In this document: positions 1 to 15,269 of the stretch, piece by piece | How the letters are laid out: each line of letters begins with the position of its first letter | Position numbering within the stretch: position 1 is the first letter of the stretch | NCBI GenBank assembly: GCA_003240755.1 | Contig: QFNF01000001.1 | Location: 1-64,000, forward strand | Length of the DNA: 64,000 nt | Reading direction: 5' to 3' | Origin: Sphingomonas hengshuiensis | GTDB lineage: Bacteria > Pseudomonadota > Alphaproteobacteria > Sphingomonadales > Sphingomonadaceae | Translations under genes and position numbers: made by a program | The notes under the pieces: generated by a model | Seen by the model: the letters and a program-made list of their open reading frames with translations, nothing else | The model's database searches: none | Told to the model about the DNA's origin: nothing

Positions 1-95
1 GATCTCCGGTTCCGCTTCGCTCCACCTCCGACCGGCAATGGCGGTAGAGACGACGATGCACTAACTATCAACCCGGACCACCCGGTGGGGGCTGC

Positions 96-2177
96 TCACA
101 GCAGGTACTGCCAACGGTCGCGGGTCGGATCGCCTTCGTTGTTGAAGCGCACGTCGCACTCGTTGCGGATGCTCGCCGGCACGCCAGTGATCCACCATGC
201 GTCGCGGATCTCGCCGTAGCGCGCGCGTAGCGTGGCGAGCACGTCGTCATACAGGATCTGGTTGATCTCGACGATCATGTCGCGCGCCTGCTCGGTGCCG
301 GCCGCGTCCTGCGAGTCGAGGTAGGCCTTGATCTCGGGAAGGTCGAACTCGGGCTTGGCCGATGCGATCACCGCCATCATCTGCATCGCGTTCTGGTCGA
401 CGCCGACCTTCGAGCTGCCGCGGTTACGGAAGAGCGCGACCTCGGCTATGCTGGCGGACGAGAAGTAGTCGACGACGGGCCGAGTCCACGGCTCGAGCAG
501 GTCGACCAGCTCGTCCGGCGCCAGCGACACAACCCTGGTGCCGTCGCGCTCGACAAACGTGACGAGGCGGCGCAGCAGCACGAGCAGTGCGCGCAACCCG
601 AGGTTTGTGCAGAGGTATCCGCCCTTTGCGTCGCCGAGCTCCCAATGCGCGGGCGCGCCGTTCGCGAATAGGCCGAAGTAGCGCTGCAGCGCACCCTGCG
701 CACGGGCGATGTGTGCGCCCGCCTCGCCGGACAGGTGCCCGAGCGGACCCGGTTGCAACACGGGCGCGCCGTTCCGGCCCGACGGCCGCTGGACCGACCC
801 GATCAGGTTGTTGTCCTCGAGGCCATCGACCAGCGACGTGAGCGTCAGGCACTGCCAGTTTGTCTTCTCGCTGCCGATTGTCAGGATGCGGTCCTTGACC
901 GGCGAGGTGCGGTCGCCGCCCATGTTGAGAACCACCCGGGCGCAGATCGCCTCCAGGCGCTTGCGCGGATCGTCGTCCTCGATGTTGAGGTTGGAGATCA
1001 GCTCGTTCACCAGATTGCGGGCGACCTTCACCTGCTGGGTGTTGATGTCGACAAACATCTCGATCTCGGCCCGTGCCGGCAGGTTCTCGTATGCGAGCAC
1101 GGACACGACCGAGTGGTCGTGCTCGGCGTCGCGGCCGGCGTAGGCGTAGCCGTAGAGGCGGTGCTGGCCGTCGATCACCCAGGCGCTGCCATACTGGCCG
1201 GGGAGCTCGAGCATGCCGGTCGCCGTCTCGCCGAACCGGTCCTGCACGTCGAAGCGAAGCCCGTCGCGCTTGATATTGATGACGATATTGGTGGGAAAGG
1301 TTCCGCCCTCGTCGATGTAGGCGCCGATAGACTTCAAACGGGCAGGCTTCACCATGCGCTGGTAGGTCTCAAGGTCCGAGTTGGACGTGCGGCCCATGTG
1401 GCTGATGTAGGCCACCCGAAGCAGCTCGTGCGGGGAAATGAGGAAGCTGTAGAAAGTGGTGCCGCCGACCCGGCCGCGCGTCGCAGGCACCTTATTGCGC
1501 AACCCCTCGACCTTCTCGTCGCGGAGGTATCGACCCAAGAACTGATACCTCGCCGCCTCGCGCAGGATGCCGGTCAGGCGCTGGAAATATTCGAGGTCCG
1601 CTTCGGTAATGATCGGAATCTTGGACTGCTCCGCGCGCTCGCGGTCGGCGGTGCGGACGTCGACGTTCCGCGTCGCGATAGCCAGCTTGATCTTCAGCTT
1701 GCGGTCGCGGCCATACTCGGCCTGCACCGCGGCGATCACGTCCTCACGGATGGCGTCGATCTTATCGAGCAGCGCCTTGATCGGCTTCGCTCCGCCGTCG
1801 CGGGAATGCGTGCATTCGACGATGAACACGGTCTCGTCGTCCTTCGCGAACACGTCGAGCTGACGGCGAGTTGTCCCGTCCTTCGCCGTCACGATGAAGT
1901 TTCGGTCCGGATTCATCTCCTTGAACCCCATGCGGTAGAACAGCGACCAGACGTCGTCCTCGAGCTGACGGTCGACCGGCTTAGCCTTCTGCATGCGGAT
2001 CGATCGCTTGTTCTGCTTGGCGACGACCCAGCCGTCGTGCTCCTCCGCCTCGCGCTTCATCTCAAGCGACTTGGCGGACGCCGCGGTTACGGTCTTCTCG
2101 TCGAAGCGCTTCGAGCGGAGGTTGTAGGCCGAGCGCAGCTCCTCCCCGCTCACCAATGCACCCAGCGCCGCCGTCAT
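96..2177 (-). CDS. DGQHR-domain protein with N-terminal nuclease-like region
   Basis: A 693-residue protein carries the motif WVIDGQHR at about residues 333-340, followed by FVDINTQQ, the signature of the DGQHR family to which DndB of DNA phosphorothioation belongs. The N-terminal third has a PD-(D/E)XK-like pattern: QLDVFAK (Asp about 108) then FIVECTHS (Glu about 121), with Thr where the catalytic Lys is expected. An in-frame GTG at 2237 would add 20 residues, but the ATG at 2177 has a GAGGGG Shine-Dalgarno just upstream and is preferred. No dndC, D or E lies nearby, so this is not a dnd operon. A role in defence or DNA-modification sensing is inference from the family. It is the leftmost gene of the element seen here. 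Confidence 0.75.
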   Translation of the reverse strand: MTAALGALVSGEELRSAYNLRSKRFDEKTVTAASAKSLEMKREAEEHDGWVVAKQNKRSIRMQKAKPVDRQLEDDVWSLFYRMGFKEMNPDRNFIVTAKDGTTRRQLDVFAKDDETVFIVECTHSRDGGAKPIKALLDKIDAIREDVIAAVQAEYGRDRKLKIKLAIATRNVDVRTADRERAEQSKIPIITEADLEYFQRLTGILREAARYQFLGRYLRDEKVEGLRNKVPATRGRVGGTTFYSFLISPHELLRVAYISHMGRTSNSDLETYQRMVKPARLKSIGAYIDEGGTFPTNIVINIKRDGLRFDVQDRFGETATGMLELPGQYGSAWVIDGQHRLYGYAYAGRDAEHDHSVVSVLAYENLPARAEIEMFVDINTQQVKVARNLVNELISNLNIEDDDPRKRLEAICARVVLNMGGDRTSPVKDRILTIGSEKTNWQCLTLTSLVDGLEDNNLIGSVQRPSGRNGAPVLQPGPLGHLSGEAGAHIARAQGALQRYFGLFANGAPAHWELGDAKGGYLCTNLGLRALLVLLRRLVTFVERDGTRVVSLAPDELVDLLEPWTRPVVDYFSSASIAEVALFRNRGSSKVGVDQNAMQMMAVIASAKPEFDLPEIKAYLDSQDAAGTEQARDMIVEINQILYDDVLATLRARYGEIRDAWWITGVPASIRNECDVRFNNEGDPTRDRWQYLL

Positions 2178-2280
2178 CCGTATCCCCTCAGGATGAATCC
2201 CTAGGCTATAATGTCTTGGAGTATCAGCCCCGTCCACTGGTTCGGGGCTCGGTCGCGTCGATCAGGATGCGGTACCCTGA

Positions 2281-2961
2281 TCAGGACGCCTGTCCGTAGA
2301 ATAGCAGTCGATCCAATTCATGAGCTAGCTCATTCTCTGTAGCCGACAATCGTTCGGCCCATCCACGAACGATGGCAGGTAAGTACGTTCGGCTGTCGAG
2401 TACCAGCGCAGCTCCATCGACCGCCTCCGCGACCCGAGCGGTTCGCGCCTCGCTACAAATGAGCACGTCACCGAGCGGCTCGTCGCTCCGGTCGTCATGC
2501 TGGCGTCGCTTGCCCAACATCGCGAGCGCGTTGGCGCGAAACACCGCGATCGAAGCTCCCGGAATCGATCGTCGTACAGTGTAGCTCTGCGGCAATGCAT
2601 CGGCAGCCCCCGCCATCAGGAACGGAGCCAAAGCCGACCAGCCTTCGGTCACGTAGCGCGCCGCCAGCGCTGGCGCCATAAACGCGTCCATCAGCCGGAC
2701 AGCGGTGGCAAACGCGGCCAATTCAGAAATACCGTAATGCAGACGAGCGGCCGCGTCGTCCCGACGATACGGCACCCCTAGCCGTTGCAAATGTCGGACC
2801 CGCGCATCGAACGCACTCCGCGCCTCGGACGATAGGCCGCAGGCATCCATCAAAACGGTGATGGCGTCGGTGAAGCTCAAACTGAGCGACAATGGCTGTG
2901 GATTCGGCACGATGCGGTGTGCCCCGTGTTCAAGGCACGTCGCAAGTTTGTCTATTGCCAA
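2281..2961 (-). CDS. Hypothetical protein, possible MerR-like DNA-binding regulator
   Basis: The ORF has 226 codons from a TTG start; the start is uncertain and a later one is possible. Residues about 50-100 (VRHLQRLGVP, then YGISELAAFATAVRLMDAFM) resemble the helical DNA-binding segment of MerR-like proteins common on mobile elements of this group. That resemblance is from pattern reading only. The rest has no motif I recognise. The gene is divergent from the operon beginning at 2993, with about 31 bases between the two starts, so it is well placed to control that operon as well as itself. It is the only regulator-like gene near the ubiquitin-like operon. Confidence 0.6.
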   Translation of the reverse strand: MAIDKLATCLEHGAHRIVPNPQPLSLSLSFTDAITVLMDACGLSSEARSAFDARVRHLQRLGVPYRRDDAAARLHYGISELAAFATAVRLMDAFMAPALAARYVTEGWSALAPFLMAGAADALPQSYTVRRSIPGASIAVFRANALAMLGKRRQHDDRSDEPLGDVLICSEARTARVAEAVDGAALVLDSRTYLPAIVRGWAERLSATENELAHELDRLLFYGQAS

Positions 2962-2992
2962 GTGATCTAGAAGAGCTTATAGATGTCTTGCC

Positions 2993-3664
2993 ATGAGACT
3001 CCACGCGCCTGCTTCTACCGAACCCGACCAGCCAGCCTCGTCGATCGTTCACCAGGCTCTCGGCCGCTTCTCGGTCGAGGTCGATGCCGCGTACCCACAC
3101 ATGGTGTGCTTGATGTTGTCTAATTCCGATTCTGGCGGCGCGAAAAGCATCTGGAGCCGACATTTCGGCGACCTCGCCGACCGCGACACTGTGCTCGAGC
3201 GGTTCCAATCAGGCGGACTTGATCTGACGTTCCTGGCGCGGGTCACCATGATCTTCGGCCAGTCCGCTATAACGGCGGCGGTCGATCAAGTGGTAGAGCG
3301 TGGACGCGCGGCTCGCCGCGCGCAAGCCGAGGCGGAGGCCAAGCGCCAGAAGAACCACAAGATCATCAACTTGTATGCGCCCGACACGAAGCACGCGTAC
3401 AAGCTCGAGCTCAGGCGCAAGAGCAACGACGTTGCCGAATGGTCCGTCCGCTACGACCGCGCGAGTGAGCGCGACCGGCTGTGCGACTGGTTGCGCTGGC
3501 AGGTGCCGCGGTTCGGCGAGTTCCTCGACCACGCCGCTAAATACGGCAACGAGGCACTTACCCGCCTGTTCACCGACGAAATGTTCGAGGCGGAGCGACG
3601 GGTGAAGAAGGAAGGCCGTGGCGCTGGCGGCCTGCGGCCCTTGAGAATGTGGCGGGGGGACTGA
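2993..3664 (+). CDS. Hypothetical protein, first gene of the Ubl/E1 operon
   Basis: This 223-residue protein is not recognised. It has a variable N-terminus and a charged helical, probably coiled-coil stretch at about residues 100-122 (RGRAARRAQAEAEAKRQK). A mixed segment follows (KIINLYAPDTKHAYKLELRR), then a Trp-rich region (WLRWQVPRFGEF). No signal peptide or membrane segment is seen. Its TGA overlaps the ATG of the AAA+ gene (TGATG at 3662-3666), so the two are translationally coupled and probably work together. It is not an E2 or JAB protein: there is no candidate catalytic-Cys motif and no HxH...D motif. A function cannot be assigned. Confidence 0.7.
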   Translation: MRLHAPASTEPDQPASSIVHQALGRFSVEVDAAYPHMVCLMLSNSDSGGAKSIWSRHFGDLADRDTVLERFQSGGLDLTFLARVTMIFGQSAITAAVDQVVERGRAARRAQAEAEAKRQKNHKIINLYAPDTKHAYKLELRRKSNDVAEWSVRYDRASERDRLCDWLRWQVPRFGEFLDHAAKYGNEALTRLFTDEMFEAERRVKKEGRGAGGLRPLRMWRGD

Positions 3665-4560
3665 TGAATCAGCTCGCCCCCTTCCGCCGTGCCACTCCGG
3701 CGATGATCGTCGGTCGCGCCTTCGATGATGGGCCGGCCCCGCTCGGGCTGAGCGAACCGTTCGCGCTGCGCGGCGGCGACCGGCTCGGCCCCGACGGCAT
3801 CGCGTTCGAGCTGATGCACGAACACCAGCCTGCTTTCCTACGTTGGGTGACGAGCAGCTGTAGGGCGCTCATCGCGGTGGAGCGGCCTTGGTTCCGCGCG
3901 CCGCCCGTGTTGCTGACCGGACCGGAGGGTGCCGGACGCACCCATGCCGCGCGCCGGCTGGCGCGGGTAGCGGGGGTGCCGCACGTCATTCTCAACGTTA
4001 CCGACCCGGTTATCGCGGCGAATTTGGCGTCGTCGGGGCACGTCAGCGAGGCTCTTTGGGCGTCGCCGGTCACCGTCGCCATGGCCGCCAAGCGCTGCGC
4101 CAACCCGATCGTGACGGTCATCGGTATCGACAAGGTCGGCGATGACATCGCCGCAGGTATCGTTTCGATGATCGATCCTGCGACCGGTCGGTCATGGAGC
4201 GAGGATCAGTTGGAAACCGAAATTGACCTCGGCGAGGTAACTTGGGCGGTCCAATGCGATAGTCTGACGCGCGTGCCGCCAGCCTTGCGCGGGCTGGCAG
4301 CACATGTCGAGTTCAGCAGCCTTCCGTCCGGTGTCGAGAACACAGCAGCGCTCTCGATCCTGCTCGAGGTGTTGGACGATCTCGGGCTCGACGAAGCCGA
4401 TCCGGCATTCGACTGGCCCAACGTGGCGTGCCGGCTGAGCGCATATCACCGTACCGCGAAGCATCTCTATGCACAAATAACTGAAGCGGTGACCGACATC
4501 GCGCGAGGCGGCCTGTCCCCCGTCGAACGTCACGAGGACGATGAAGACGTTCCCTTTTAA
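3664..4560 (+). CDS. Lon-type AAA+ domain protein with degenerate catalytic motifs (putative pseudo-ATPase)
   Basis: The 298-residue protein follows the Lon AAA+ module. A P-loop LLTGPEGAGRT lies at residues 83-93, then NPIVTVIGIDKV at 147-158 (Lon NPLFLLDEIDKM), a DPATGRSWSEDQ stretch (Lon DPEQN..F.D), DLGEVTWAVQCDSL (Lon sensor 1) and VPPALRGLAAHVEF (Lon IPxPLLDRMEVI). By this alignment the P-loop Lys is Arg92, the Walker B Asp-Glu are Ile153-Gly154, sensor-1 Asn is Asp199 and the finger Arg is Leu211. There is no protease domain. ATP hydrolysis is therefore unlikely, and a structural or substrate-binding role is inferred. ATG 3664 is chosen over GTG 3649 because it overlaps the upstream stop. 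The ubiquitin-like gene follows 21 bases later. Confidence 0.8.
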   Translation: MNQLAPFRRATPAMIVGRAFDDGPAPLGLSEPFALRGGDRLGPDGIAFELMHEHQPAFLRWVTSSCRALIAVERPWFRAPPVLLTGPEGAGRTHAARRLARVAGVPHVILNVTDPVIAANLASSGHVSEALWASPVTVAMAAKRCANPIVTVIGIDKVGDDIAAGIVSMIDPATGRSWSEDQLETEIDLGEVTWAVQCDSLTRVPPALRGLAAHVEFSSLPSGVENTAALSILLEVLDDLGLDEADPAFDWPNVACRLSAYHRTAKHLYAQITEAVTDIARGGLSPVERHEDDEDVPF

Positions 4561-4581
4561 ACCTTGATGAGGAGAAGATCG

Positions 4582-4965
4582 ATGACTCTGCCTGCCGCCA
4601 TGTTCGAACCCCAGGGCCGTTCGGTGTCTGTCCCGGCGCACGATCCCGTCCCGGTCGTTCGGTCGCGCCCGCATCTCTACCTCGTTGGCGAAGCTGAGCG
4701 TTCGAACCGCGCTCCCGCAGCATCCGCCGGCCGCATCTCGATCCAGATCAACGGCCGATGGCATGCGCTCCGGGGCCGAACGGCCACGTTCGCGCAGCTG
4801 CTGCGCTTGGCCTTCCCCAATCAGGCACTGGCGACCCCGAGTGCTGCAACCGTTTCTTATCACGGCGGCGTAGCAACCCGTCCCAGCGGCCTCATGACGC
4901 CCGGAGACGTGATCGAACTCGCCGATGGCCTGATCGTCAACGCCGATGCCACCTATGCCAGCTGA
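4582..4965 (+). CDS. Ubiquitin-like beta-grasp protein (multiubiquitin-like family)
   Basis: The product has 127 residues. Residues 1-50 look disordered. Residues 51-127 have the layout of single-domain bacterial Ubl proteins: ISIQINGRWHAL, then TFAQLLRLAFP, TVSYHGG, LMTPGDVIELADGLIVNA and a short tail ending TYAS. From memory this matches the multiubiquitin-like family that accompanies ThiF-type E1 enzymes; a profile search was not possible. It does not end in Gly-Gly, so any conjugation would need an unusual C-terminus. The ATG at 4582 is supported by a strong GAGGAGAAG Shine-Dalgarno at 4569-4577, better than the in-frame TTG at 4564 or ATG at 4567. Its stop lies inside the start region of the E1 gene, fixing them as partners. 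Confidence 0.8.
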   Translation: MTLPAAMFEPQGRSVSVPAHDPVPVVRSRPHLYLVGEAERSNRAPAASAGRISIQINGRWHALRGRTATFAQLLRLAFPNQALATPSAATVSYHGGVATRPSGLMTPGDVIELADGLIVNADATYAS

Positions 4966-5734
4966 GCCCGCAGCTGCCGCAGAAATAGCCTCGCAGCCTA
5001 GCCCATTCGTTTACGAGGACACCGCAGCGACCCGCGCGGGCATTGCCGCGGTGTCGAAGCGACTGGCTGGCGGCACGATCGCGATCATCGGGCTCGGCGG
5101 GACCGGTTCCGAGGTGCTGGATCTCATCAGCAAGACGCCGTGCCAGCGCATCCTGCTGTTCGATGGCGACCGCGTCGAGCAGCATACGGCTTGGCGCGCG
5201 CCGGGTGCGATGCCGTGGGGCACCATCGTTTTGGGGCCCTACAAGGTTGAGCATTATGCCGAGGTGTACAGCCGCATGCACAAGGGCATCCTGATCTACC
5301 GAGAGGATCTGACCCCCGACAACATCTATCTGCTCGACGATGTCGATTTCGTGTTCGTCTGCGTCGACAGCGTGCGTGCCCGGGCTTTCATCATCCCGGA
5401 ACTCGAACGTCGCGACCTTCCGTTCATTGACTGCGGACTCGGCCTGCGGCTGGTCGGAGACTGTGTCATGGGCCAGGTCCGCGTGACGACCAGCACGCCA
5501 GCGATGCGCGCCCATGTCCATGAGGGCAGCCGCATCCCGGTAGCGGGCCGCGACGATGACGAACTCTACCGCAGCAACATCCAGGTCGCCTGCCTCAATC
5601 GGCTCGCAGCTACCCTGGCGGTAATTCAGTACAAGCAGTTGCGCGGTTTCTATGCCGACAGCGAAGCCGAATATCACTGTGTCTATTCGGTCGACGGCAA
5701 CACCATCGTCAACGCGGATCGCGCGGACACGTGA
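4946..5734 (+). CDS. E1-like ThiF/MoeB-family adenylyltransferase
   Basis: The 262-residue protein has the nucleotide-binding glycine motif IIGLGGTG at residues 47-54, LFDGD at 71-75, HTAWRAPGA with the Arg finger (R84), a conserved Lys in GPYK (K100), and CVD at 139-141, all E1 adenylation features. The C-terminal YRSNIQVACLNRLAA and YKQLRGFY stretch is typical of bacterial ThiF proteins paired with Ubl proteins. Candidate catalytic cysteines are C163, C173 and C216. It should activate the C-terminus of a ubiquitin-like protein, most simply the product of the preceding gene. It overlaps that gene by about 20 bases; ATG 4955 is an alternative start. No E2 or JAB gene follows. The next gene is convergent, so the operon ends here. 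Confidence 0.88.
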   Translation: MPPMPAEPAAAAEIASQPSPFVYEDTAATRAGIAAVSKRLAGGTIAIIGLGGTGSEVLDLISKTPCQRILLFDGDRVEQHTAWRAPGAMPWGTIVLGPYKVEHYAEVYSRMHKGILIYREDLTPDNIYLLDDVDFVFVCVDSVRARAFIIPELERRDLPFIDCGLGLRLVGDCVMGQVRVTTSTPAMRAHVHEGSRIPVAGRDDDELYRSNIQVACLNRLAATLAVIQYKQLRGFYADSEAEYHCVYSVDGNTIVNADRADT

Positions 5735-5750
5735 CGTCAATGCAATGTGC

Positions 5751-6590
5751 CTATCCGTGCCCCTGGATCATTCGCTCACCACGCGCGGCGAGGCCGTAGA
5801 GCTCGGTGATCTCACGGCGGGTCGGCCGCCATGGGAAGGTGGGATCGGCATCGCGAGGCACCGCCGTCCAAGCGGCCTTGGGAATAGGCTGCAGCGACTC
5901 CCAAAAGGTTTCGAGCACGATCACGATATCGTCACCGTCATTGCGCACCTCGGCGACCATGAAGTCATGCGTGGCGAAGAAGGGGTGGCCGACGATCTCG
6001 GAAGCGCGCCAGCGATCGTTGCTGGTCGCGTCCTTTTTCAGACCCAACACCAACGTATCTGGCAGGTGATGACGCGCGACCCGGATGGTCGCGCGTTCAC
6101 TCAATGTTGCAACTGCGGGAACGCGGTGCGACAGTTCGATCCGCTCGGCGACGGCTTGGCCGCAGCGCACTCTGATCTTTGCCGACATCTGACCCAGGTC
6201 GCGCCGCGCGCGGCGAGCAAGGTCCCCGATCACTGGCGCGGCGCCGGCGCGGTTGGTAAGCGTGAGCACCTTCGAAAGGGCCTTGTCCGTCCGCGACCAG
6301 CTCAGCCATTTGCCGAGCATGTCGGGTGCCGCGACCAGCCACAAAGGCGCGCCCGTCTCGTCGGCGGCGACGACCATCGCGGTCGCACGCTGGTAAGCGA
6401 CCTGCGCCTCGATCGCCGAGGCCAGCCGCTCGAACGCGCGCTGAGCGGCAACCCCGAAGGTGATCGTCACGCCGGCGATCGTCACCGCAAACCGGTCCTC
6501 GCCCGCCGATACCGTGACGCTCGCCGGATCGACGATGCCAAGCATCGCCTCGGCGATCGCTCGCGGCGCATCTTGCTTGCCGCTCATCGT
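5751..6590 (-). CDS. Hypothetical protein, minus-strand orphan between the two element operons
   Basis: The protein has 279 residues from the ATG at 6590; an in-frame upstream start at 6671 would give 306. I do not recognise it. Visible are a hydrophobic beta-rich segment near residues 28-50 (FAVTIAGVTITFGVAA), an Arg-rich region at about 130-150, and an acidic/aliphatic DDIVIVLETFWESL near the C-terminus. It has no signal peptide or membrane span. It converges on the E1 gene with only 16 bases between the stops, and is divergent from the 6732 operon across a 141-base region that carries a shared upstream motif. Its base composition matches its neighbours, so it looks like an integral member of the element. 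Confidence 0.65.
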   Translation of the reverse strand, partial: TMSGKQDAPRAIAEAMLGIVDPASVTVSAGEDRFAVTIAGVTITFGVAAQRAFERLASAIEAQVAYQRATAMVVAADETGAPLWLVAAPDMLGKWLSWSRTDKALSKVLTLTNRAGAAPVIGDLARRARRDLGQMSAKIRVRCGQAVAERIELSHRVPAVATLSERATIRVARHHLPDTLVLGLKKDATSNDRWRASEIVGHPFFATHDFMVAEVRNDGDDIVIVLETFWESLQPIPKAAWTAVPRDADPTFPWRPTRREITELYGLAARGERMIQGHG

Positions 6591-6677
6591 CTGGTGTCCG
6601 CCCCGCTCATACCGAAAGAGAATAGCGCGCCGATGGCGCGGTTGCACATCGCAACCCGACATCGTCCGCAAAATCCT

Positions 6678-6710
6678 CGGTTACATCGTCGATCGAGTTT
6701 TCGCCTGCCA
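6678..6710 (+). promoter_or_regulatory. Conserved element motif, copy 1
   Basis: CGGTTACATCGTCG begins at 6678, 54 bases before the ATG at 6732. The core is identical to copy 3 (13181) and differs by one base from copy 2 (11490). It is followed by a T-rich run and a CA-ended segment as in the other copies. It lies between divergent genes. It is probably a promoter or operator of the element's own regulator; that role is inference. Confidence 0.5.
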
Positions 6711-6731
6711 CGCTTCCGTTCGGAGGCAGCG

Positions 6732-7589
6732 ATGACGATTGATGATGTTCCTGCAGATCATAACGCGCTGCGCGCGGCGGTCGACCGCGAGGTCGCAATG
6801 CATCAGGCCCTTAAAGATGATGCGTACGCGCGTATCGCCGCGCTCGATGCCGAGCAGGCAACGCTTGGACACCATCCAAACTATGCCGCCTACAAGCATG
6901 GCGGCATGCTGCGCGGTATGGGCTTCGCCCACATCCTCGCCCATGCTGGCTTCTATAGACTGGCCTATGGGGAAGCGATCACCCGGCTCGCCGAGGCGCG
7001 GGATGAGACCGACGCCGACTGCCTGATCGTCGCCTTGGCCTACGTCTGCGAAACCGACCCGTTGCTCGAGGTCGCCGGGCTCGCCTGGCTCGATGGCCAT
7101 GACCTACTCAAGCGCGGCGGGCTCGATCCGTTCTGGCACAAGCGCCCGAAGCTCGGACTTGGGCAGCCGGCCAAGCTCCACGGTCTCACCGCGGCCGATG
7201 CCGACGCGCACCGGGGCCTTTACACGTTCTCTCCGGCTCAGTTGCGTCACCGCTTCGATGCGGTCTCAGACCAATCCTCCGACACGTTCGGAGCCCTGTT
7301 GCCGTCGGTTATCGGCGCGGGAGGTACCGAACTCTCCGCCACAGGGGCGGCGGCCACCGAGCAGGATGCCGCCGATCGCTACTGGGCCAAAAGCGCGAGC
7401 TTCGCGGAGCATCAGCGAACGAACGGCGATCGACGCTGGCGCTGGAAGCCACCGCTGTCGCGGCAGGGCCATCATGCCCGAACTATCGCGGAGCTCAAGG
7501 AAGTAGCGATGCCGGCGGAGCGCACCCGCGGCCACGCCGCCAACTGGCTCGACGACAACGGCGCCAACCCGCGCTTCCGCAAGGACTGA
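6732..7589 (+). CDS. Hypothetical protein, first gene of second element operon
   Basis: The 285-residue protein starts at an ATG preceded by a GGAGG-like site at 6722. It is rich in Ala, Asp and His. The first 130 residues look helical (a DAYARIAALDAEQATLG stretch, then an LAHAGFYRLAYGEAITRLAE helix). The last 60 residues are basic and Trp-rich (DRRWRWKPPLSRQG), ending NPRFRKD, suggesting a disordered or nucleic-acid-contacting tail. I recognise no family. The next start is 6 bases after its stop, so it heads an operon with the 97- and 803-residue proteins. A conserved motif shared with two other element genes lies 54 bases upstream. Confidence 0.65.
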   Translation: MTIDDVPADHNALRAAVDREVAMHQALKDDAYARIAALDAEQATLGHHPNYAAYKHGGMLRGMGFAHILAHAGFYRLAYGEAITRLAEARDETDADCLIVALAYVCETDPLLEVAGLAWLDGHDLLKRGGLDPFWHKRPKLGLGQPAKLHGLTAADADAHRGLYTFSPAQLRHRFDAVSDQSSDTFGALLPSVIGAGGTELSATGAAATEQDAADRYWAKSASFAEHQRTNGDRRWRWKPPLSRQGHHARTIAELKEVAMPAERTRGHAANWLDDNGANPRFRKD

Positions 7590-7595
7590 GCGCTC

Positions 7596-7889
7596 GTGTC
7601 CCGCATCACCATCACCGAGAACGGGATCGACAAGATCGTGACCGACATCGCCCCGTACCGCGCCGAGCGCGAGGGCGTCCTGGCCAAGCTGACTCACATC
7701 TACGCCGACTTCGAAAAGGGGCCGGTCGAAACCCTCGCCTCGAGCGAGCAGGAAATTGTCGATCTCGTCAATCGCTACAACGTGCTGACCGACTTGATCG
7801 AGCGGTTCGACGAGGCCGGCATTCGCCGTGCCAATATCCTCGCCGGCTGGGCAATCGTGAAGCAGCATTGCGCCGGGGGAAGCGCATGA
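7596..7889 (+). CDS. Small hypothetical helical protein
   Basis: The 97-residue protein begins at GTG 7596, six bases after the previous stop. It looks all-helical, with heptad-like hydrophobic spacing at about residues 15-80 (EREGVLAKLTHIYADF, EIVDLVNRYNVLTDLIERF), and could be a coiled-coil partner. It has no recognised domain, signal peptide or membrane span. Its stop overlaps the ATG of the following 803-residue gene (ATGA at 7886-7889), so the two are translationally coupled and may act as one complex. Confidence 0.65.
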   Translation: MSRITITENGIDKIVTDIAPYRAEREGVLAKLTHIYADFEKGPVETLASSEQEIVDLVNRYNVLTDLIERFDEAGIRRANILAGWAIVKQHCAGGSA

Positions 7890-10297
7890 CGACCGGCCCC
7901 GCCGTGAACACCGACACGCGTATGATCGCGGCCGGGCTCGCCGCTAACGTCGCCGTGGCGCTGCCGCCCGTCATCACAGCGACCGGACGCGCCGCGCAGA
8001 TCAGTCACGCGATTGTGCCGGCGGGCGGCTGGGGGCCGTTCGCGCTTCTGCCGCACACCGATTATATCGACGATCCCGACCGCCGACCAGGCTGCGGGTT
8101 CGTCGGCGGGCGCATGCCCAGCATTGCGCCGCTGTTGGTACCCGACGCAATTCCGGCGCAGGCGAACGTCGCTGTCTCGCTGCGTTCGTTGCCCGACAGC
8201 GCCGATGCCATCCTGCGCGACCTTCGAATCCGTTCCGGACTCTGGTCGGCACCTGGCGCGTTGTTCGCTCGTGCCGCCTGGACCGACACCTTCGTCGCGA
8301 CGTTTCTCGATCGACTGCGAGAGAACGGCAGTGCCGCTGAGCTCATCGTCGCACATGCCCAAGCAATGCTTGCCGTCCGCAAGATGTGGTTGGCGGTCGA
8401 GTGGGACGTCGGCGTCAGTGTGGGCATACCCCTGACGATTGCATCGGGCGCGGCAGCGGTAGGACGCGCGCTGATCGACGTAATCGCGCTTATCGATCGC
8501 CTGGCGACCCCGGAGCGTGAGGGCGTCAGCCGACCTACGCATCGCGAAGCCGCGCTGGCCGCGCTGCTGACCGCGCTCGGTCACTATCTGCGGCACGTGT
8601 CTGCCTCCGACACCGACGAAACTCCCGCGATCGTCCGGCGCAAGCTCAGCTGCGCGATCGACAAGGCACGCGCCATCCTCGACGCCATCGGTGTGTTTTC
8701 GGTCTCCGATGACCCCGAGAGAAAGCGCTGGGAACGGCTGACCGCGATGCTCGACATCGGTGAACTGCACGAACACGCCGGCGGAGCGGCGGCGAAGCTC
8801 GACCGCCTGTCGCGCCAGCTCGAGCAGCTGCGATGCGCCGATCTCGGCCATCGGCTGGAGCGCTCCGGTTGGCGTCCACATATCCGGCGATCACTGCTCC
8901 GTCTGGCATCATCCGATCGACAGCGTCGCCAGGCGCTGCTCACCCGGATCCGCTGCGACTTGATCTTCACGCTTGCCGCGACGCGCCGTCTCGACCGGCT
9001 CTACCGACTGTTCCCTTGGCTGGCGGCACCGCACGGCGCATTCCCGGGCTGCGCCGGCGGTGCGCTCGGCGCGCTTGCCTCACTCTACGAATCGGGGCGC
9101 GGAATCGAGATCGGGCTCGACATGAAGCGCCGCCTGGCTGACGCGAGCCAGCGACCCGGATCGGTCGTGCGCATGACCGCGCGCAAGACAAAGGCCGTTT
9201 ACAGCAATCCACGCCATATCGTGTTGGCGGCCGGTCGCAACTATGCGGCCGGCGCCGCGCTGGTCGGACAGGTCACCAGCCACGTGATGGTCAGGGCCGG
9301 GCTGGAGGGTCGGACATTCGGCTGCCTGTCGCTTGACGCGACCCGCTACGGTGACCTCGGCTACAATGACGCCGCCGCGTTGAAGGTCGGTCGCATCCGT
9401 GATGCGGTGGTCACAATCCAGCAGGCGCAGCCGGCGTTCGCGGTGGCGGCACGCGACGATGACCTCATTCGCCACATGGGACTGACGTTGGTCCGCCACT
9501 TCGGCGCGATGGTCCACTCTATCTGGCCGACCAGCTATCAGCGTAGTGACTTCACGATCCATCGCACGCTCGTCCACACCGGCCGCAGGCCACGCAAGGG
9601 TAAGGACTGCCACCCCGATACCGATGGACCCTGGAACAGATTCAGCAAGCACCGCATCCATCACGAACTCGTCCGCTCTATGCTGCGCCATGTCGACGGC
9701 GGTGATGACGATACGCTGCGCGATGCCATCCTGGATATCGAGACGCCCCCCGCCGACGATGGCGAGTACGCGCGCGCAGCTCGCCTGAGGGGCGATGCCA
9801 GCCGAAAAGCGGGCGCCTGGGACGAGCATGACGAGGGCCAGGGGGCCGCGCGTCGCGCTGCCGAGGAATCGACCAATATCGCAGAGCGTGGCGCTTTCCT
9901 GCGCGACCTCGCCGACGACGCACGCCGCTGGCGGACACGCGATCTTGGCGAGCAGCGGCTCGCTCCCCAGGATGACCTGCTCGAGGACATTCTGCTCGGT
10001 CGCGCGAACCTCGCGCAGCTGGCACCGGTGTCCGACCTGTTCATACCGATCCTGTGGTTCGCCCCGCTGATCGATCGGGACCGACTGGCATGGATCGCGC
10101 GCGGTATGCCCGGCCAGCCCGCCGGCGGCGACGACGATGCCAGCGCGGCGCGTCTCAAGAGCTGGATCGCGGCGGTCCGCTGCTGGTCTTGGGCGCCATT
10201 CGCGTCGTCCATCGTCCGCGGTCGCGACGATGTTATCGCCTGCCATCTGTTTACAGGTGTGTCGCCGGTGACCGCGGACCTCGCCCATGTCCGGTGA
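7886..10297 (+). CDS. Large hypothetical protein (803 aa) of the mobile element
   Basis: This is the largest cargo protein apart from the recombinase and DGQHR protein. The ATG at 7886 overlaps the upstream stop by four bases. I see no Walker motifs, relaxase HUH motif, DDE/DEDD nuclease pattern or zinc ribbon. Residues about 170-200 (VSVGIPLTIASGAAAVG, ALIDVIALIDRL) and about 720-735 (LFIPILWFAPLI) are hydrophobic but too weak to call as membrane spans. The middle is Arg- and His-rich (residues about 330-400). The segment at about residues 560-610 (SRKAGAWDEHDEGQG lies just after it) is strongly polar. Size, coupling to a coiled-coil protein and position suggest an effector or structural component, but this is a guess. 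Confidence 0.68.
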   Translation: MTTGPAVNTDTRMIAAGLAANVAVALPPVITATGRAAQISHAIVPAGGWGPFALLPHTDYIDDPDRRPGCGFVGGRMPSIAPLLVPDAIPAQANVAVSLRSLPDSADAILRDLRIRSGLWSAPGALFARAAWTDTFVATFLDRLRENGSAAELIVAHAQAMLAVRKMWLAVEWDVGVSVGIPLTIASGAAAVGRALIDVIALIDRLATPEREGVSRPTHREAALAALLTALGHYLRHVSASDTDETPAIVRRKLSCAIDKARAILDAIGVFSVSDDPERKRWERLTAMLDIGELHEHAGGAAAKLDRLSRQLEQLRCADLGHRLERSGWRPHIRRSLLRLASSDRQRRQALLTRIRCDLIFTLAATRRLDRLYRLFPWLAAPHGAFPGCAGGALGALASLYESGRGIEIGLDMKRRLADASQRPGSVVRMTARKTKAVYSNPRHIVLAAGRNYAAGAALVGQVTSHVMVRAGLEGRTFGCLSLDATRYGDLGYNDAAALKVGRIRDAVVTIQQAQPAFAVAARDDDLIRHMGLTLVRHFGAMVHSIWPTSYQRSDFTIHRTLVHTGRRPRKGKDCHPDTDGPWNRFSKHRIHHELVRSMLRHVDGGDDDTLRDAILDIETPPADDGEYARAARLRGDASRKAGAWDEHDEGQGAARRAAEESTNIAERGAFLRDLADDARRWRTRDLGEQRLAPQDDLLEDILLGRANLAQLAPVSDLFIPILWFAPLIDRDRLAWIARGMPGQPAGGDDDASAARLKSWIAAVRCWSWAPFASSIVRGRDDVIACHLFTGVSPVTADLAHVR

Positions 10298-10392
10298 TCC
10301 ATCACGGCCGTCGGCCGGGACCAGGGGCGTTCGGACGACCGCCGGTCCAAGCAGGCAATACGACAACCGATCGAATAGTGGAGGCAGGCAGC

Positions 10393-10941
10393 ATGTACGT
10401 CATCTGTGACGAGATGTGGAACAGCGTGGACATCTACGGCCCGCAATCGGAAATCGATCGCTTCAAACGCCGCTTCATCGTGCCGGCGCCCGCCGATCGC
10501 CGGTCGCGCAGCACGTTGGCGTTCAAGCTCGACGATCTGAGCGGCGAATTCTCCTGGAACTTCCGGGAATTTAGGCCGGACGAGAACGACGTGTACTCGT
10601 TCGCATTCGACACGCTGGCGAATTTCCCGACCTACGCTTTCGAGCGCCTGGTAGAGATGTTCCCGAAGCTGCATTTCGACTGCGAATGCATCGCCGACGA
10701 CGATCACCGAATGGGATACGGCTGGTTCAACACGCCCCCCGGCGGTCAGGATTTCTACGATTACTATGACGTGCCCGCAGGCTTCTGGACCAGCGGTCGC
10801 GGCAAGCGCACGCGTCCCGAAGAACGTCGGCACAAAATGGTCATCGACGCGCTCAGGCGACGGCTGCGCGACGAGGAGCAAAGTGGACACGGCGGTGATC
10901 TTCGCGACGTTGGCCGTGGAAGCGGAAGGTCGCCTCGATGA
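10393..10941 (+). CDS. Api92-like/DUF1281-type protein, copy 1
   Basis: The 182-residue protein begins at the ATG at 10393, after a GGAGGCAGGC ribosome-binding stretch. It resembles the Api92-like family found on phages, plasmids and integrative elements. Diagnostic parts are WNSVDIYGPQSEIDRF at the N-terminus, an aromatic FDTLANFPTYAFERL segment, then FDCECI, GYGWFNTPPGG and DVPAGFWTSG. The fold is ferredoxin-like by family knowledge, and its molecular role is unknown. It overlaps the start of its paralogue by four bases (ATGA), so the pair is co-translated. Its C-terminal 35 residues are basic and not shared with the paralogue. Confidence 0.75.
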   Translation: MYVICDEMWNSVDIYGPQSEIDRFKRRFIVPAPADRRSRSTLAFKLDDLSGEFSWNFREFRPDENDVYSFAFDTLANFPTYAFERLVEMFPKLHFDCECIADDDHRMGYGWFNTPPGGQDFYDYYDVPAGFWTSGRGKRTRPEERRHKMVIDALRRRLRDEEQSGHGGDLRDVGRGSGRSPR

Positions 10942-11468
10942 GCGAGGTCTGGAACAGCGTGAGGGTGTATGGGCCGCCCTCGGAGATCAGTCGCTTCAAG
11001 CTGCTCTGCTTTGCTCCATCACGCGCCAGCGACACTCATGATGACGACGGTTGGGACGGGTGTGACTGCGTCATCACCGTCCCGGCCGATGAGCGACGCG
11101 ATAACGGCCCGCCGTTCTCAGACTACGTCTGGAATTTCGATCATGACGATGTGCCGGGCGACAGTCGCTATGCGTTCAACTTCGATACGGATTTCCGATT
11201 TCCGGTTGATCTTTTCGAGCGTATCGCTCGGGCGTTTCCCGCGCTCGCCTTCGACTGCGACTGCATCGATAGCATGGACGAGTTCATGGGGTATGGGTGG
11301 TTCAATACTCCAGCTGGCGGAGAGGATTTCAGCCAGAGTTACGATGTTCCCAAAGACTATTGGACATCGGGCAGCGGACACAAGCGAGACCCAGCCACTC
11401 AGTCACAGCATGAGGCGTTGATTGCCCAGCTCGTGCGTGCTGACCGCGAGACCGATGGGCGCCTGTAA
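10938..11468 (+). CDS. Api92-like/DUF1281-type protein, copy 2
   Basis: The 176-residue paralogue of the preceding gene shares the frame WNSVRVYGPPSEISRF, FDTDFRFPVDLFERI, FDCDCI, GYGWFNTPAGGEDF and DVPKDYWTSG in the same order. The two are clearly a tandem duplication that has diverged, especially in residues 25-60, where this copy has CDCVITVPADERRD. The family is typical of mobile elements. The start codon sits inside the end of copy 1. After its stop comes an 87-base gap with the second copy of the shared upstream motif, so a new transcription unit probably begins there. Confidence 0.75.
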   Translation: MSEVWNSVRVYGPPSEISRFKLLCFAPSRASDTHDDDGWDGCDCVITVPADERRDNGPPFSDYVWNFDHDDVPGDSRYAFNFDTDFRFPVDLFERIARAFPALAFDCDCIDSMDEFMGYGWFNTPAGGEDFSQSYDVPKDYWTSGSGHKRDPATQSQHEALIAQLVRADRETDGRL

Positions 11469-11489
11469 CTTTTTATCAGAATCAAGCGA

Positions 11490-11524
11490 CGGTTACGTCG
11501 TCGCCGCGTTTTGTCGTCGGCATC
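11490..11524 (+). promoter_or_regulatory. Conserved element motif, copy 2
   Basis: CGGTTACGTCGTCG starts at 11490, 66 bases before the ParB-like start at 11556. It is preceded by GCGA, giving a small inverted repeat (GACG...CGTC), and followed by CCGCGTTTTGTCGTCGGCA. The downstream half closely matches copy 3. It is likely a promoter/operator shared among element genes. Confidence 0.5.
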
Positions 11525-11555
11525 CTCGAATCACTAGCGATCGAGGACTTACCGC

Positions 11556-12443
11556 ATGGACGACAACGAACTACCGCTCGACGGCGCCCAGCCGCCCAAG
11601 CGCGGCCAGAAAGCAAACTACGTCGTCGAGTTCCTCACTCACGACAGAACCAGGGTGTCGCCTAAAAATCCGCGGTTCGACTACACCATCAGCGACGACA
11701 GCGTCGCGCCGCTCGTCGCCGAGCTCAAGGCGGTTGGGCAAGCGCATGACGCTATTGGCGAGCGCGGGGCCGACGACATCGTCGAGATCCTTGCTGGCTC
11801 GCGTCGCCGCGAAGCATGCCGCATTCTGGAAAGCCCCCTTCGCGTTCGCGTGTATGAAAAGGGTGCGCTGACCGCTGAAGTAGCTCTCAAGATCGCCAAC
11901 AGAGAGGATCGGGGCGCGCTTGAAGTGAGCCTCTGGGATAAGTCTGCATCCTGGGCGCGCATGCTCGACGGGAAACTCGTGGCCAGCGAGGCCCGGCTTG
12001 CGGATGCGGTCGGCGAGGACAAGTCAGCGATCAATCGGGGGCTGGCACTGCAAAAGGCACCCGCGGCGATCCTCGACCTCGTTGCCGACAGGCGCGCAAT
12101 CTCCATGACGCAATGGGCGCAGTTGGCGCCGCTCCTGGAGGACGACAGTCAGCGTGACCGCATTCTTGCCTGCGCCGCGCTGCTAGCCGGGCAGACGCTC
12201 GCCATCGCGCCGCTCGTGCGCAAGCTGGCCGCCGCCGCCGCGGGCAAGGACGAGATCAGGCCGGTCGAGGTGAAGAACCGCCACGGCCGGATCATCGCCA
12301 CGATCTCACCTGATCACCGCGGCGCGTTCACGATCCGGGTGAAGTCGATGGCCGAGCAGCACCCCAGCTTCCGCCTCGACCACGCCAAGCTGATCAACGC
12401 CGCCTTCGTCGATGTCATCAAGGACTGGTTCGGCGACGCCTGA
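11556..12443 (+). CDS. ParB/RepB/Spo0J-family partition-like protein
   Basis: The 295-residue protein shows the ParB N-terminal fold: SPKNPR at residues 35-40 (ParB box I-like), then ILAGSRRREACR at 78-89 (ParB box II). A helix-turn-helix region follows at about 144-165 (SEARLADAVGEDKSAINRGL). ParB proteins bind centromere-like sites and hydrolyse CTP in plasmid and chromosome segregation. No ParA lies in the window, so it may act as a stand-alone regulator or stabilise the excised element. A GAGG Shine-Dalgarno precedes the ATG. It is probably co-transcribed with the small gene 36 bases downstream. Confidence 0.85.
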   Translation: MDDNELPLDGAQPPKRGQKANYVVEFLTHDRTRVSPKNPRFDYTISDDSVAPLVAELKAVGQAHDAIGERGADDIVEILAGSRRREACRILESPLRVRVYEKGALTAEVALKIANREDRGALEVSLWDKSASWARMLDGKLVASEARLADAVGEDKSAINRGLALQKAPAAILDLVADRRAISMTQWAQLAPLLEDDSQRDRILACAALLAGQTLAIAPLVRKLAAAAAGKDEIRPVEVKNRHGRIIATISPDHRGAFTIRVKSMAEQHPSFRLDHAKLINAAFVDVIKDWFGDA

Positions 12444-12479
12444 CCCTGCTGAACCGACAGCACATTCAAGGACAGCACC

Positions 12480-12773
12480 ATGCACGAGTTTGAAACGATG
12501 AAGTTCCCGTTCGGATCGGTGAGGCGCCGTCGCGCTCCGATCACCAGTCCGACGCTCCTCGCTCTGCCCGAGAGCGCGCGTCCAGTGCCGATCCTCGCCT
12601 GCGCCACCTGTCCGGCGGGGAGCTGGTATCACGACGAAGAGCACCTCGCCTGCCATTGTGCCGCGCGGCGCTACGTGTCGTGGCTGCCCAAGCAGAAGGC
12701 GATCGCGCTATGCGACGATCGGGAGGCAGCGCTCGCCGAGCAGCAAGCCAACCGGCAGGATGGCGAGGCTTGA
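12480..12773 (+). CDS. Small Cys-rich hypothetical protein
   Basis: The 97-residue protein has a Cys cluster ACATCPAGSWYH at about residues 40-51 followed by ACHCAARR at 57-64, giving four Cys plus His that could bind one zinc ion. The last 20 residues are a charged helix. No family is recognised. It is not an E2, since there is no UBC fold around the cysteines, and it is not DUF6527-like. It lies 36 bases after the ParB-like gene and probably shares its transcript. An internal ATG six codons in (MKFPFG) is an alternative start. Confidence 0.6.
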   Translation: MHEFETMKFPFGSVRRRRAPITSPTLLALPESARPVPILACATCPAGSWYHDEEHLACHCAARRYVSWLPKQKAIALCDDREAALAEQQANRQDGEA

Positions 12774-12787
12774 TCGCCTTCGCGCGT

Positions 12788-13117: not shown

Positions 13118-13180
13118 TTCCAATCTCCTTTTCCCCAGCCCTAACTGGATCACCCTCTCCTCTGCCTTGAAATATTCTGA

Positions 13181-13213
13181 CGGTTACATCGTCGCCGCTA
13201 TTTGAGGTCGGCA
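13181..13213 (+). promoter_or_regulatory. Conserved element motif, copy 3
   Basis: CGGTTACATCGTCG starts at 13181 and continues CCGCTATTTGAGGTCGGCA, closely matching copy 2 over about 35 bases. It sits 44 bases before the GTG of the small gene upstream of the recombinase and is preceded by an AT-rich AATATTCTGA. It is the best candidate for the promoter/operator region of the recombinase transcript. Confidence 0.5.
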
Positions 13214-13224
13214 CATGCTGGTCA

Positions 13225-13452
13225 GTGGACAGCACCGACGCCCATCCTCGCGCTTCGATCGCTCATTCTCGGGAGGGGATCGGTGTAGCCGTGCCCGGCG
13301 CGCGCCATATCGAAGGCCGTATCGTCGCCGACCGGCTCCCGGACTCTTTCCCGCTGGCGCGATCGGAGTCAGAGTGGCTGCTGACACTCCTGAGCGCGGA
13401 CGAGCTGCGCTACATCTTCGAAGGCCCGACCGATGGCGAAACCTCGGACTGA
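13225..13452 (+). CDS. Small hypothetical protein upstream of the recombinase
   Basis: A 75-codon ORF from GTG 13225 overlaps the recombinase start by 20 bases. The C-terminal half (ESEWLLTLLSADELRYIFEG) is a plausible amphipathic helix; the N-terminal third is unremarkable, and the start is uncertain. Small accessory proteins often precede recombinases of this type on sphingomonad elements. Position after a shared upstream motif and overlap with the recombinase favour a real gene, but a shadow ORF cannot be excluded. Confidence 0.45.
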   Translation: MDSTDAHPRASIAHSREGIGVAVPGARHIEGRIVADRLPDSFPLARSESEWLLTLLSADELRYIFEGPTDGETSD

Positions 13453-15064
13453 ACGCGCGCTCGGTTATGTCCGAGTATCGACCCAGCGCCAGGCGGAAGG
13501 TGGCATCAGCCTCACCAATCAGGAGGAGCGCCTCACCGCCCACTATAGCCAACGCGGGGTCGAACTCGCCGACATCTATCGCGATGGCGGCCTGTCGGGC
13601 ACGAACGACAACCGGCCCGGCCTGCAGGCGCTGTTCGAGCACGCCCTGCGTCCTGGTAGCGGTGTCACGGAAATCGGCGTTTACAGCTTTTCGCGACTTT
13701 TCCGCGATCATTATCTGCTCGAGCATTATCGCCGGAAGCTGAAACGCGCCGGAGTCCGCATCGTCGCGATCACCCAGGATGTCGGACATGATGCAGAGGG
13801 CGACCTGGTCCGCTCGGTTCTCTCCAACTTCGACGAATACCAGTCGCGCCAGACTGCCAAGTTCACCCGCGACACGATGAAGCGCAACGCCGAGGCCGGC
13901 TTCTGGAACGGGGCGATCCCTCCGTTCGGCTATACGACCGAGGTCGCCGAGATGCGCGGCCCCAAAGCCAAGAAACGTCTCGTGATCGAGCACTCGGAAG
14001 CGCTGCAGGTCCAGCAGATTTTCCGCATGAAACGCATCGGCGTCGGCCAGGGGCCGATGGGCTACAAGAAGATCGTCAGCCATTTGAATGGTAACGGCGC
14101 CACGCTGCGCGGTCGCAAGTTTCACGTCTCGAACATCAAGGACATCCTTCAGCGTTCGACCTATCGCGGCAAGCACCCCTATGGGGTCCACGACGTCCGG
14201 AACGGCATCAAACGGTCCGAGGACGAGTGGCAGATGATCGACGTCCCGGTCATTATTCCCGAATCCGAATGGCTCGAGGTGCAAGCCGGTATCGCCCGCA
14301 ATGCTCAGCACATCACGCCGGCGCGAATCACCAACGGACCGACCATGCTCGCCGGAATTGCCAAATGCGGGCACCCCGAGTGCGGTCACGCGCTGGCGAT
14401 CGCTACGGGCAAGGGCGGACGCTATCGCTACTACCGTTGCTCGCGTCGCCTGCGCCGTGGCGAGACTGCGTGCGAAGGCACAAGCATCCGCGACGAAAAG
14501 CTCGAAACGATCGTGATTGACGCGATGGCCGAGCGGCTGCTGCGTCCTGAACGATTGCAGGAGCTTTTGGCCAATCTGCTCGACGACAGCTCAGCCGCTG
14601 TCCGCGAGCGACAGGCGCATCTGAAAGCCCTGCGAACCGAGCGGACGCGTGTCGCGGGCGCGATTCAGAACATGTTCGACTTTATCGAGCAGGGCATCGT
14701 GTCCCCGCGTGATGTCGATTTTACCGCGCGCCTTGCCGCGCAGCGTACGCGCCGCGCCGATCTGGAGCAGGAAATCTTGCTAGTCGAGCGGCAGCTATCC
14801 ACCGCCGACCGACGGGTCACGCCCGAGGCCATCGAGCGGCTCGGCGAGGTCATCCTTACCAAGTTACGCTCGGATGATCACACTTTGCGGCAGGGCTACG
14901 CGCGCCGCTTTATCGCCAAGGTGGTGGTCGCGCCCAATCTGATCACGATCACCGGACCGATAAAACCGCTTGAACTCGCCGTTGGCGGTGATCCCGAACA
15001 GATCACACCGGCGGTGCCCTCTTCTGCTCGGGAGTGGTGCCGCTTACAGGACTCGAACCTGTGA
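13433..15064 (+). CDS. Large serine recombinase (site-specific integrase)
   Basis: The 543-residue protein has an N-terminal resolvase domain with YVRVSTQRQ (nucleophile Ser16) and YSFSRLFRD, and a Recombinase domain around residues 160-290 (FGYTTEV; NIKDILQRSTYRGKHPYG). A zinc ribbon follows (CGHPECGH at about 316-323, YYRCSRR at 336, then TACEG), and a coiled-coil region at about 390-470. It integrates and excises the element by serine chemistry. Its last 10 codons (WCRLQDSNL and stop) are encoded by the antisense of tRNA-Thr: stop at 15062-15064, tRNA 3' end at 15035. The gene thus reads across the probable attachment site, and its C-terminus may change on excision. Confidence 0.93.
   Translation: MAKPRTERALGYVRVSTQRQAEGGISLTNQEERLTAHYSQRGVELADIYRDGGLSGTNDNRPGLQALFEHALRPGSGVTEIGVYSFSRLFRDHYLLEHYRRKLKRAGVRIVAITQDVGHDAEGDLVRSVLSNFDEYQSRQTAKFTRDTMKRNAEAGFWNGAIPPFGYTTEVAEMRGPKAKKRLVIEHSEALQVQQIFRMKRIGVGQGPMGYKKIVSHLNGNGATLRGRKFHVSNIKDILQRSTYRGKHPYGVHDVRNGIKRSEDEWQMIDVPVIIPESEWLEVQAGIARNAQHITPARITNGPTMLAGIAKCGHPECGHALAIATGKGGRYRYYRCSRRLRRGETACEGTSIRDEKLETIVIDAMAERLLRPERLQELLANLLDDSSAAVRERQAHLKALRTERTRVAGAIQNMFDFIEQGIVSPRDVDFTARLAAQRTRRADLEQEILLVERQLSTADRRVTPEAIERLGEVILTKLRSDDHTLRQGYARRFIAKVVVAPNLITITGPIKPLELAVGGDPEQITPAVPSSAREWCRLQDSNL
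15035..15064. other. Probable attachment site (element/chromosome junction)
   Basis: The recombinase ORF and the 3' end of tRNA-Thr overlap across these bases, and mobile-element genes end here while core genes start just beyond the tRNA. The matching copy of this tRNA 3' segment should lie at the element's far end, left of the window; none is seen within positions 1-15,000. The exact crossover cannot be read from one end. Confidence 0.5.
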
Positions 15065-15110
15065 CCCCCGCATTACGAATGCGATGCTCTACCAACTGAG
15101 CTAAAGCGGC
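15035..15110 (-). tRNA. tRNA-Thr(CGT)
   Basis: A full 76-base cloverleaf is read on the minus strand, with acceptor GCCGCTT pairing AAGCGGC and a D arm containing AGTTGGTA. The anticodon loop is TTCGTAA (anticodon CGT, Thr codon ACG), the T loop is TTCGAGT, the discriminator is A, and CCA is encoded at 15035-15037. The 3' half faces the recombinase gene, which overlaps it by 30 bases. This is the classic placement of an integration target whose 3' end is rebuilt by the element. Confidence 0.97.
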
Positions 15111-15269
15111 GCAGGCGGACTTGCCGTCTGGAGGCGGGCGCTTACCAGTGGGCGGGGCGGGTGGCAAGCGTCTTTGCGTGCCGACGCATCGGCGGCGGCT
15201 TTACCGGACGTTTACCGTGCCGCCTGCACAACCGGCGCCATGGGGCGGAGTGCCCGTGGGGACGTAGCT

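Follow-up and report, generated by a model that had tools for sequence, protein, structure and literature searches.

Multiubiquitin operons (type 6e) consist of a gene for a protein with one to three ubiquitin-like repeats adjoining an E1-like gene, and a subset of them encodes an E1 in which an uncharacterized N-terminal domain replaces JAB (PMC1779556). The type 6e section of Iyer et al. 2006 mentions no AAA partner (PMC1779556). We analyzed a stretch of 64,000 nucleotides (hereafter the window) from Sphingomonas hengshuiensis (GCA_003240755.1, contig QFNF01000001.1, positions 1 to 64,000), which carries at 2993..5734 a cassette of four genes encoding a protein without known family (Orphan), a degenerate AAA protein, a ubiquitin-like protein (Ubl), and an E1-like adenylyltransferase (E1). 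As in type 6e operons, the Multi_ubiq protein of the window adjoins and overlaps the E1-like gene. Unlike in those operons, the E1 has neither JAB nor the alternative N-terminal domain, which we infer to be DUF6791, and Orphan and the degenerate AAA protein are present instead of DUF6527. The cassette also differs from the Bub pathways, as outlined in PMC13373217, in having no E2-like part (BubB) and no DUF6527. Judging from sequence, we tentatively read it as a reduced branch of multiubiquitin (Iyer type 6e, Bub-like) pathways in a tRNA-integrating island, in which Ubl would be delivered, without the E2-like domain, to partners of the single-stranded DNA-binding protein (SSB); this is the reading we favor, although we would stop short of calling it probable.

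The cassette comprises the following features (start codons were judged by homologue lengths):

2993..3664, forward strand: Orphan, 223 aa from ATG 2993, without known family, C-terminal motif RPLRxWRG[DE] conserved
3629..3661, forward strand: C-terminal tail of Orphan, GLRPLRMWRGD, which holds the conserved motif
3664..4560, forward strand: degenerate AAA protein of 298 aa from ATG 3664 (as P0001), probable pseudo-ATPase
3919..3942, forward strand: degenerate Walker A motif GPEGAGRT, Lys replaced by Arg
4111..4134, forward strand: degenerate Walker B motif VTVIGIDK, catalytic Glu lost
4531..4557, forward strand: SSB-tip-like C-terminus of AAA, HEDDEDVPF, at the exact C-terminal end
4582..4965, forward strand: Ubl, one Multi_ubiq domain, 127 aa from ATG 4582 (as P0232)
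4939..4962, forward strand: C-terminal tail of Ubl, NADATYAS, ending in Ser
4946..5734, forward strand: E1-like adenylyltransferase of the short form, lacking the N-terminal E2-like domain, from ATG 4946 (262 aa) or 4955 (259 aa, as P0112)

The four open reading frames (ORFs) were present as described in an earlier, sequence-only reading of this DNA, and their starts and junctions could be read from the sequence. Orphan and AAA meet in TGATG (3662-3666), with an in-frame GTG at 3649 upstream of the AAA start ATG 3664. Between AAA and Ubl lie 21 nt that contain GAGGAG upstream of ATG 4582, a strong ribosome-binding site and the Shine-Dalgarno sequence which that reading had assigned to Ubl. Ubl and E1 overlap by 20 or 11 nt, depending on the E1 start (4946 or 4955). 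Three of four junctions had been counted as TGATG or overlaps; the coupling is real, but only three junctions exist, and two of them are coupled. Ratios of nonsynonymous to synonymous substitution rates (dN/dS) against locus L053 were 0.28 for Orphan, 0.14 for AAA, 0.16 for Ubl, and 0.12 for E1. The four genes are a tight operon under purifying selection.

Searching for E1 across the 295 genomes of the genus of genome G001 yielded 45 places in 37 genomes. Leaving out the partial one in G520, 44 of these places together with L005, L021-L024, and the window made up 50 classified loci, which are not independent in the counts because the E1 rows of L004 and L005 are identical, as are those of L067 and L068, and other loci are close. 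Sixteen of the 50 contain Ubl, a long E1, and DUF6527 (type A), another 16 contain Orphan, AAA, Ubl, and a long E1 (type B), and 15, including the window, contain Orphan, AAA, Ubl, and a short E1 (type C). Orphan, AAA, and Ubl were found together in 32/50 loci (15 type C, 16 type B, and one mixed), which argues that the grouping is not due to chance. L003 has a short E1 on a contig that starts inside the cassette, and L066 has a long E1 with no Ubl found. An AAA match in L086, about 3 kb distant and with a canonical Walker A motif, was kept out of the classes. In the mixed locus (L069:5149-10028), a possible intermediate, Orphan, AAA, and a long E1 stand together with DUF6527; this is the single locus of the 50 where Orphan/AAA and DUF6527 co-occur.

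Long E1s start with DUF6791. Neither this E2-like domain nor DUF6527 was found in any of the 15 type C cassettes, the window included (for DUF6527, a profile built from three such proteins was run on positions 1-16000 of the window and on the 14 remaining type C loci). Both are modules seen among the relatives, and the view of a reduced Ubl system was borne out in this respect. In VIA-align, the structure nearest to the DUF6791 model was one chain of the complex of BubCD with BubB, and on the strength of this second comparison we suggest an E2-like fold for DUF6791. In a tree of 53 E1 domains (from the 50 loci and three plasmid loci; midpoint root), the short E1s form one clade (100/100) within type B, and type B lies within type A under this rooting. 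The split of type A was weak (74/29), as were several forks in type B, and type B needs four changes. As the type C loci form a single clade inside type B, the E2-like domain appears to have been lost. A course from A through B to C is the likeliest, its direction depending on the midpoint root. One conserved clade (100/100) together with purifying selection argues that the short form is not a product of decay.

Ubl was identified by Multi_ubiq PF14452 at 27.8 bits, above the cut-off of 24.5 (ORF taken from TTG 4564), and it matches the solved multi-ubiquitin protein 9cd2 (E 0.0024). At this level of comparison its probable nature as a ubiquitin-like protein held, with no sign of a failing beta-grasp fold. 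The last column of the alignment is Ser in 69/71 Ubls, and all 49 Ubls read from the loci have a terminal Ser. Sulfur carriers of the ThiS/MoaD kind end in Gly-Gly, and Ubl differs from them in lacking this ending. In L061 and L062, E1 seems to begin past the Ubl stop, yet the T-x-x-S end is kept. The overlap of Ubl tail and E1 start, DNA shared in two frames, is conserved in the long-E1 loci L063, L065, and L071-L080. In one type C locus (L001:7850-8014), the Ubl ORF found is just 54 aa long and stands beside an intact short E1.

The E1 is of the PRK06153 type (NF004802, E 6.9e-79, positions 148-389 of 391, i.e. the last two thirds) and contains a ThiF domain (PF00899, 50.1 bits). It holds GLGGTG, DGD, R84, K100, and D141, all residues that had been named for adenylation; G51, G52, G54, D73, D75, R84, K100, and D141 are identical in 16/16 short E1s, and by these residues the enzyme looks able to adenylate. 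C139, two residues before D141, is the sole Cys among the columns listed as 16/16 in the short E1s. Pfam gave no DUF6791 or JAB match for the window E1. A phmmer comparison with Citrobacter BubCD (9ea5) reached E 0.0014 over query residues 44-167, and TcdA structures matched better (1.8e-5). No relatives of the E1 were found in viral contigs (searched for close relatives only) or phages. In L067:6994-8192 and L068:7047-8245, whose E1 sequences are identical, the long E1 is spread over two overlapping frames, as if frameshifted.

Classic bacterial cassettes such as CBASS Cap2-Cap3 and Bil share with the window a ThiF-type E1 in a gene cluster able to lie on mobile DNA, but differ from it in that no E2 or JAB was found among nine window proteins scanned with Pfam. 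The sequence-only reading had claimed that E2 and JAB are missing from the element. This is true of the nine proteins, but not every ORF was covered, and the island extends past the left end of the window into a part that lies outside the scans. For E2, neither DUF6791 nor any other match was found in the cassette, the other E2 families being covered by Pfam on the nine proteins only. The E1-E2 models of PADLOC, with which seven proteins were scanned, matched the E1 weakly (best 2.5e-5). Ten long E1s with Pfam domains show ThiF and DUF6791 only (the neighbors in type A and B loci were not scanned for JAB). What sets type C apart from its relatives is the missing E2-like domain and DUF6527; the lack of JAB is shared with relatives.

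The AAA protein had been taken for a pseudo-Lon AAA+ protein. That it is degenerate, has lost catalytic residues, and is a fixed partner was upheld, but the likeness to Lon is confined to the AAA module (TIGR00763, E 1.6e-5, positions 353-488 of 795); Lon protease itself was rejected, as the protease part is unmatched. Among 111 aligned homologues, the Walker A Lys is replaced by Arg in 107, and in Walker B Asp 161 is found in 88, mostly followed by R, K, or Q. Type B proteins have Arg in 12/16 cases, have lost the motif in three (L025, L081, L082), and have Lys in one (L087). Lys is kept in 4/4 plasmid relatives of AAA outside the operon (four of the 13 records found), and the stretches fetched for these four records contained no Ubl, E1, or Orphan. 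The AAA protein lacks the hallmarks of an active AAA+ ATPase (Walker A Lys, Walker B Glu) and is probably a pseudo-ATPase, to judge by its motifs. It was found in 4/397 genomes of the taxonomic family at E 1e-20 and is therefore rare.

The C-terminal tip of SSB is DDDIPF, and more than 14 partners are bound via its terminal Phe and acidic residues (PMC5872125). AAA terminates in a tip of this kind, with no residue beyond it; the difference is that the carrier is a degenerate AAA protein and not a protein binding single-stranded DNA. Counting C-termini of 110 homologues, fragments included, 78 end in Pro-Phe or Pro-Tyr, and 60 of these 78 have at least two acidic residues at positions -9 to -4. 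By locus, this ending occurs in 12/15 type C (not in L055, L057, and L060) and 0/16 type B loci. The background was 9/1204 six-frame ORFs of at least 150 aa in 44 loci, AAA genes included. Chromosomal SSBs from four genomes end in DDLDDDVPF, and in genome G403 the last six residues, DDDVPF, are identical in AAA (L053) and SSB (L093); two further SSB matches of G403 have no readable ends and stand outside this comparison.

A homologue of Orphan lies upstream of the AAA gene in 15/15 type C and 16/16 type B loci. Orphan matched no Pfam or PADLOC family and no NCBIfam model near its cut-off, and no relative was found on the plasmids searched. Across 29 aligned Orphans, G213, R215, P216, L217, W220, and G222 of the tail are invariant. 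The AlphaFold2 (AF2) model of Orphan (pLDDT 89.2) gave no convincing fold match, an absence that does not prove a new fold. The conserved C-terminal motif of Orphan belongs to none of the modelled helices or strands and may be gripped by E1 or AAA. Orphan was also considered as a displaced E2-like domain and rejected, as it occurs alongside DUF6791 in 16/16 type B loci and its model gave no E2 row.

The reading we favor starts from the sequences: relatives combine Ubl and DUF6527 with an E1 that carries an E2-like domain at its N-terminus. One lineage has Orphan and the degenerate AAA protein instead of DUF6527, and within it the clade of the window has lost the E2-like domain. In the proposed mechanism, E1 would still adenylate the C-terminal Ser of Ubl. 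With the E2-like domain gone, a nucleophile on a partner would receive the activated Ubl directly, and this partner would most likely be the Orphan/AAA scaffold or a protein that it holds. AAA would not be driven by ATP; its SSB-like tip would dock on host SSB-binding proteins of replication restart and recombination. Ubl would thereby be delivered to this machinery, or block it, to the benefit of the island, be it for maintenance or for the exclusion of rivals and phages. That the tip links AAA to SSB partners is our hypothesis, drawn from the likeness of the C-termini. We consider it unlikely that the proposal holds in its boldest form, in which the island would have rewired a Ubl system, dispensed with the E2-like part, and used a dead AAA protein with a copied SSB tip to bring E1-activated Ubl to the replication/repair hub. 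If true, it would mean a Ubl system working without E2, and SSB-tip mimicry as a targeting device. We recognized no account in the literature of the AAA/Orphan forms or of a Ubl operon that encodes a mimic of the SSB tip, although earlier print is possible.

Several observations weigh against this reading. Some type C loci have only a weak tip (DPEPF, DHELF), the tip is weaker in the L004-type subclade, and L055 and L060 lack it. E1 substrates usually end in Gly, and Ubl ends in Ser; moreover, long-E1 loci read the DNA of the Ubl tail in two frames with the E1 start. Foldseek of DUF6791 gave no significant E2 match (best E 0.35), and a profile search of solved sequences with DUF6791 found nothing. 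DUF6791 also has no invariant Cys, so it may be an inactive E2-like domain (UEV/RWD), and its loss may not equal a loss of E2 activity. Finally, trans partners are possible in the type C genomes G004, G567, and G629, which also hold a long E1, and in 3/10 genomes with type C only, which contain DUF6527.

The best surviving alternative is a non-covalent assembly, in which a complex of Ubl, E1, Orphan, and AAA would sense or regulate, with adenylation as a switch and no conjugation. The lack of the E2-like domain and of DUF6527 in 15/15 type C loci, the degenerate Walker motifs of AAA, the fixed gene order, and the coupled starts are all in keeping with it. It is possible but doubtful, as adenylation residues kept in 16/16 short E1s and a conserved Ubl tail exceed the demands of a structural role alone. 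It appears distinctly unlikely that Ubl is fully conjugated with the help of an E2-like protein that belongs to another family, or is encoded at another locus, and acts in trans. The relatives of types A and B have a fused E2-like domain, and the three type C genomes with an additional long E1 would offer a source; however, DUF6791 was absent anywhere in 10/10 genomes with type C only, some of which are metagenome-assembled genomes, other E2 families not having been searched for.

MccB is an E1-like enzyme that acts on a peptide ending in Asn. The lack of an E2 beside the E1 and a C-terminal residue other than Gly are reminiscent of this enzyme, and E1 might accordingly activate the Ubl tail to yield a modified, toxic, or signalling product. 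This is improbable, as loci that have the E2-like domain show a similar Ubl tail. The least credible explanation is that the operon has decayed and is what remains of a Bub-like pathway, no longer with any function. The two missing modules and the short Ubl ORF in L001 speak for it, but the 15 loci and L003 form one clade, and dN/dS is 0.12-0.28 against L053. The sequence-only reading had itself raised the prospect of E2 and JAB genes of the relatives being lost here by decay; an E2-like domain is indeed fused to the E1 of relatives, but the short form is one clade under purifying selection.

Irrespective of which explanation applies, the loci present a stepwise series in one bacterial group, with E2-like domain and DUF6527, with E2-like domain and AAA, and with neither E2-like domain nor DUF6527. 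This series lets one ask directly what E1 and Ubl do without the E2-like part. Of further interest are the E2-like fold suggested for DUF6791 and the possible connection of Ubl chemistry with SSB partners, which is open to testing.

The surroundings of the cassette include the following features:

2281..2961, reverse strand: divergent flanking island gene; homologue in 15/15 type C loci, 0/34 loci of the other classes (A, B, mixed, and x), and none in L003, which is cut
5751..6671, reverse strand: convergent flanking island gene; homologue in 15/15 type C loci and L003, 0/34 others
11556..12443, forward strand: ParB-like protein, TIGR00180 at 43.3 bits, under the cut-off of 58.45; near 12/15 type C loci, 0/34 others
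13433..15064, forward strand: large serine recombinase (PF00239, E 1.1e-25; PF07508; PF13408)
15035..15110, reverse strand: tRNA-Thr(CGT) (ARAGORN), putative integration site; the recombinase frame ends inside the tRNA

The location of the cassette on a mobile element, claimed earlier, is supported. All type C loci share the same surrounding island genes. In the stretches read, a homologue of the recombinase was present in 4/15 type C and 1/16 type A loci. tRNA-Thr(CGT) also adjoins the islands of G403 (L100) and G573 (L106), and in G403 recombinase and tRNA-Thr(CGT) are found together, as in the window. A second G403 copy and G001 had tRNA-Leu instead in the stretches read. A search for a second copy of the tRNA end at the left boundary found no repeated 16-mer in the window or in a 60-kb stretch of G403. 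A ParB-like and a ThiF-like gene on one mobile element are reminiscent of PRTRC; membership was rejected, with the E1 at 18.0 bits against a PRTRC_ThiF cut-off of 144.75.

Upstream of the cassette, at 96-2237 on the reverse strand, lies a gene for a DGQHR/DpdB-like protein (TIGR03187, 162 bits), the N-terminal stretch of which is weakly like Card1-type nucleases; it is probably defence cargo of the island. The upstream genes differ between the window, with the DGQHR protein, and G403, with SMEK, HNH, and others, and the Ubl cassette therefore looks like backbone rather than cargo. The G403 island (L099:3924-16231) encodes a PolB-type exonuclease, a MobA/MobL relaxase, and HNH, DUF4365, radical SAM/SPASM, and SMEK proteins.

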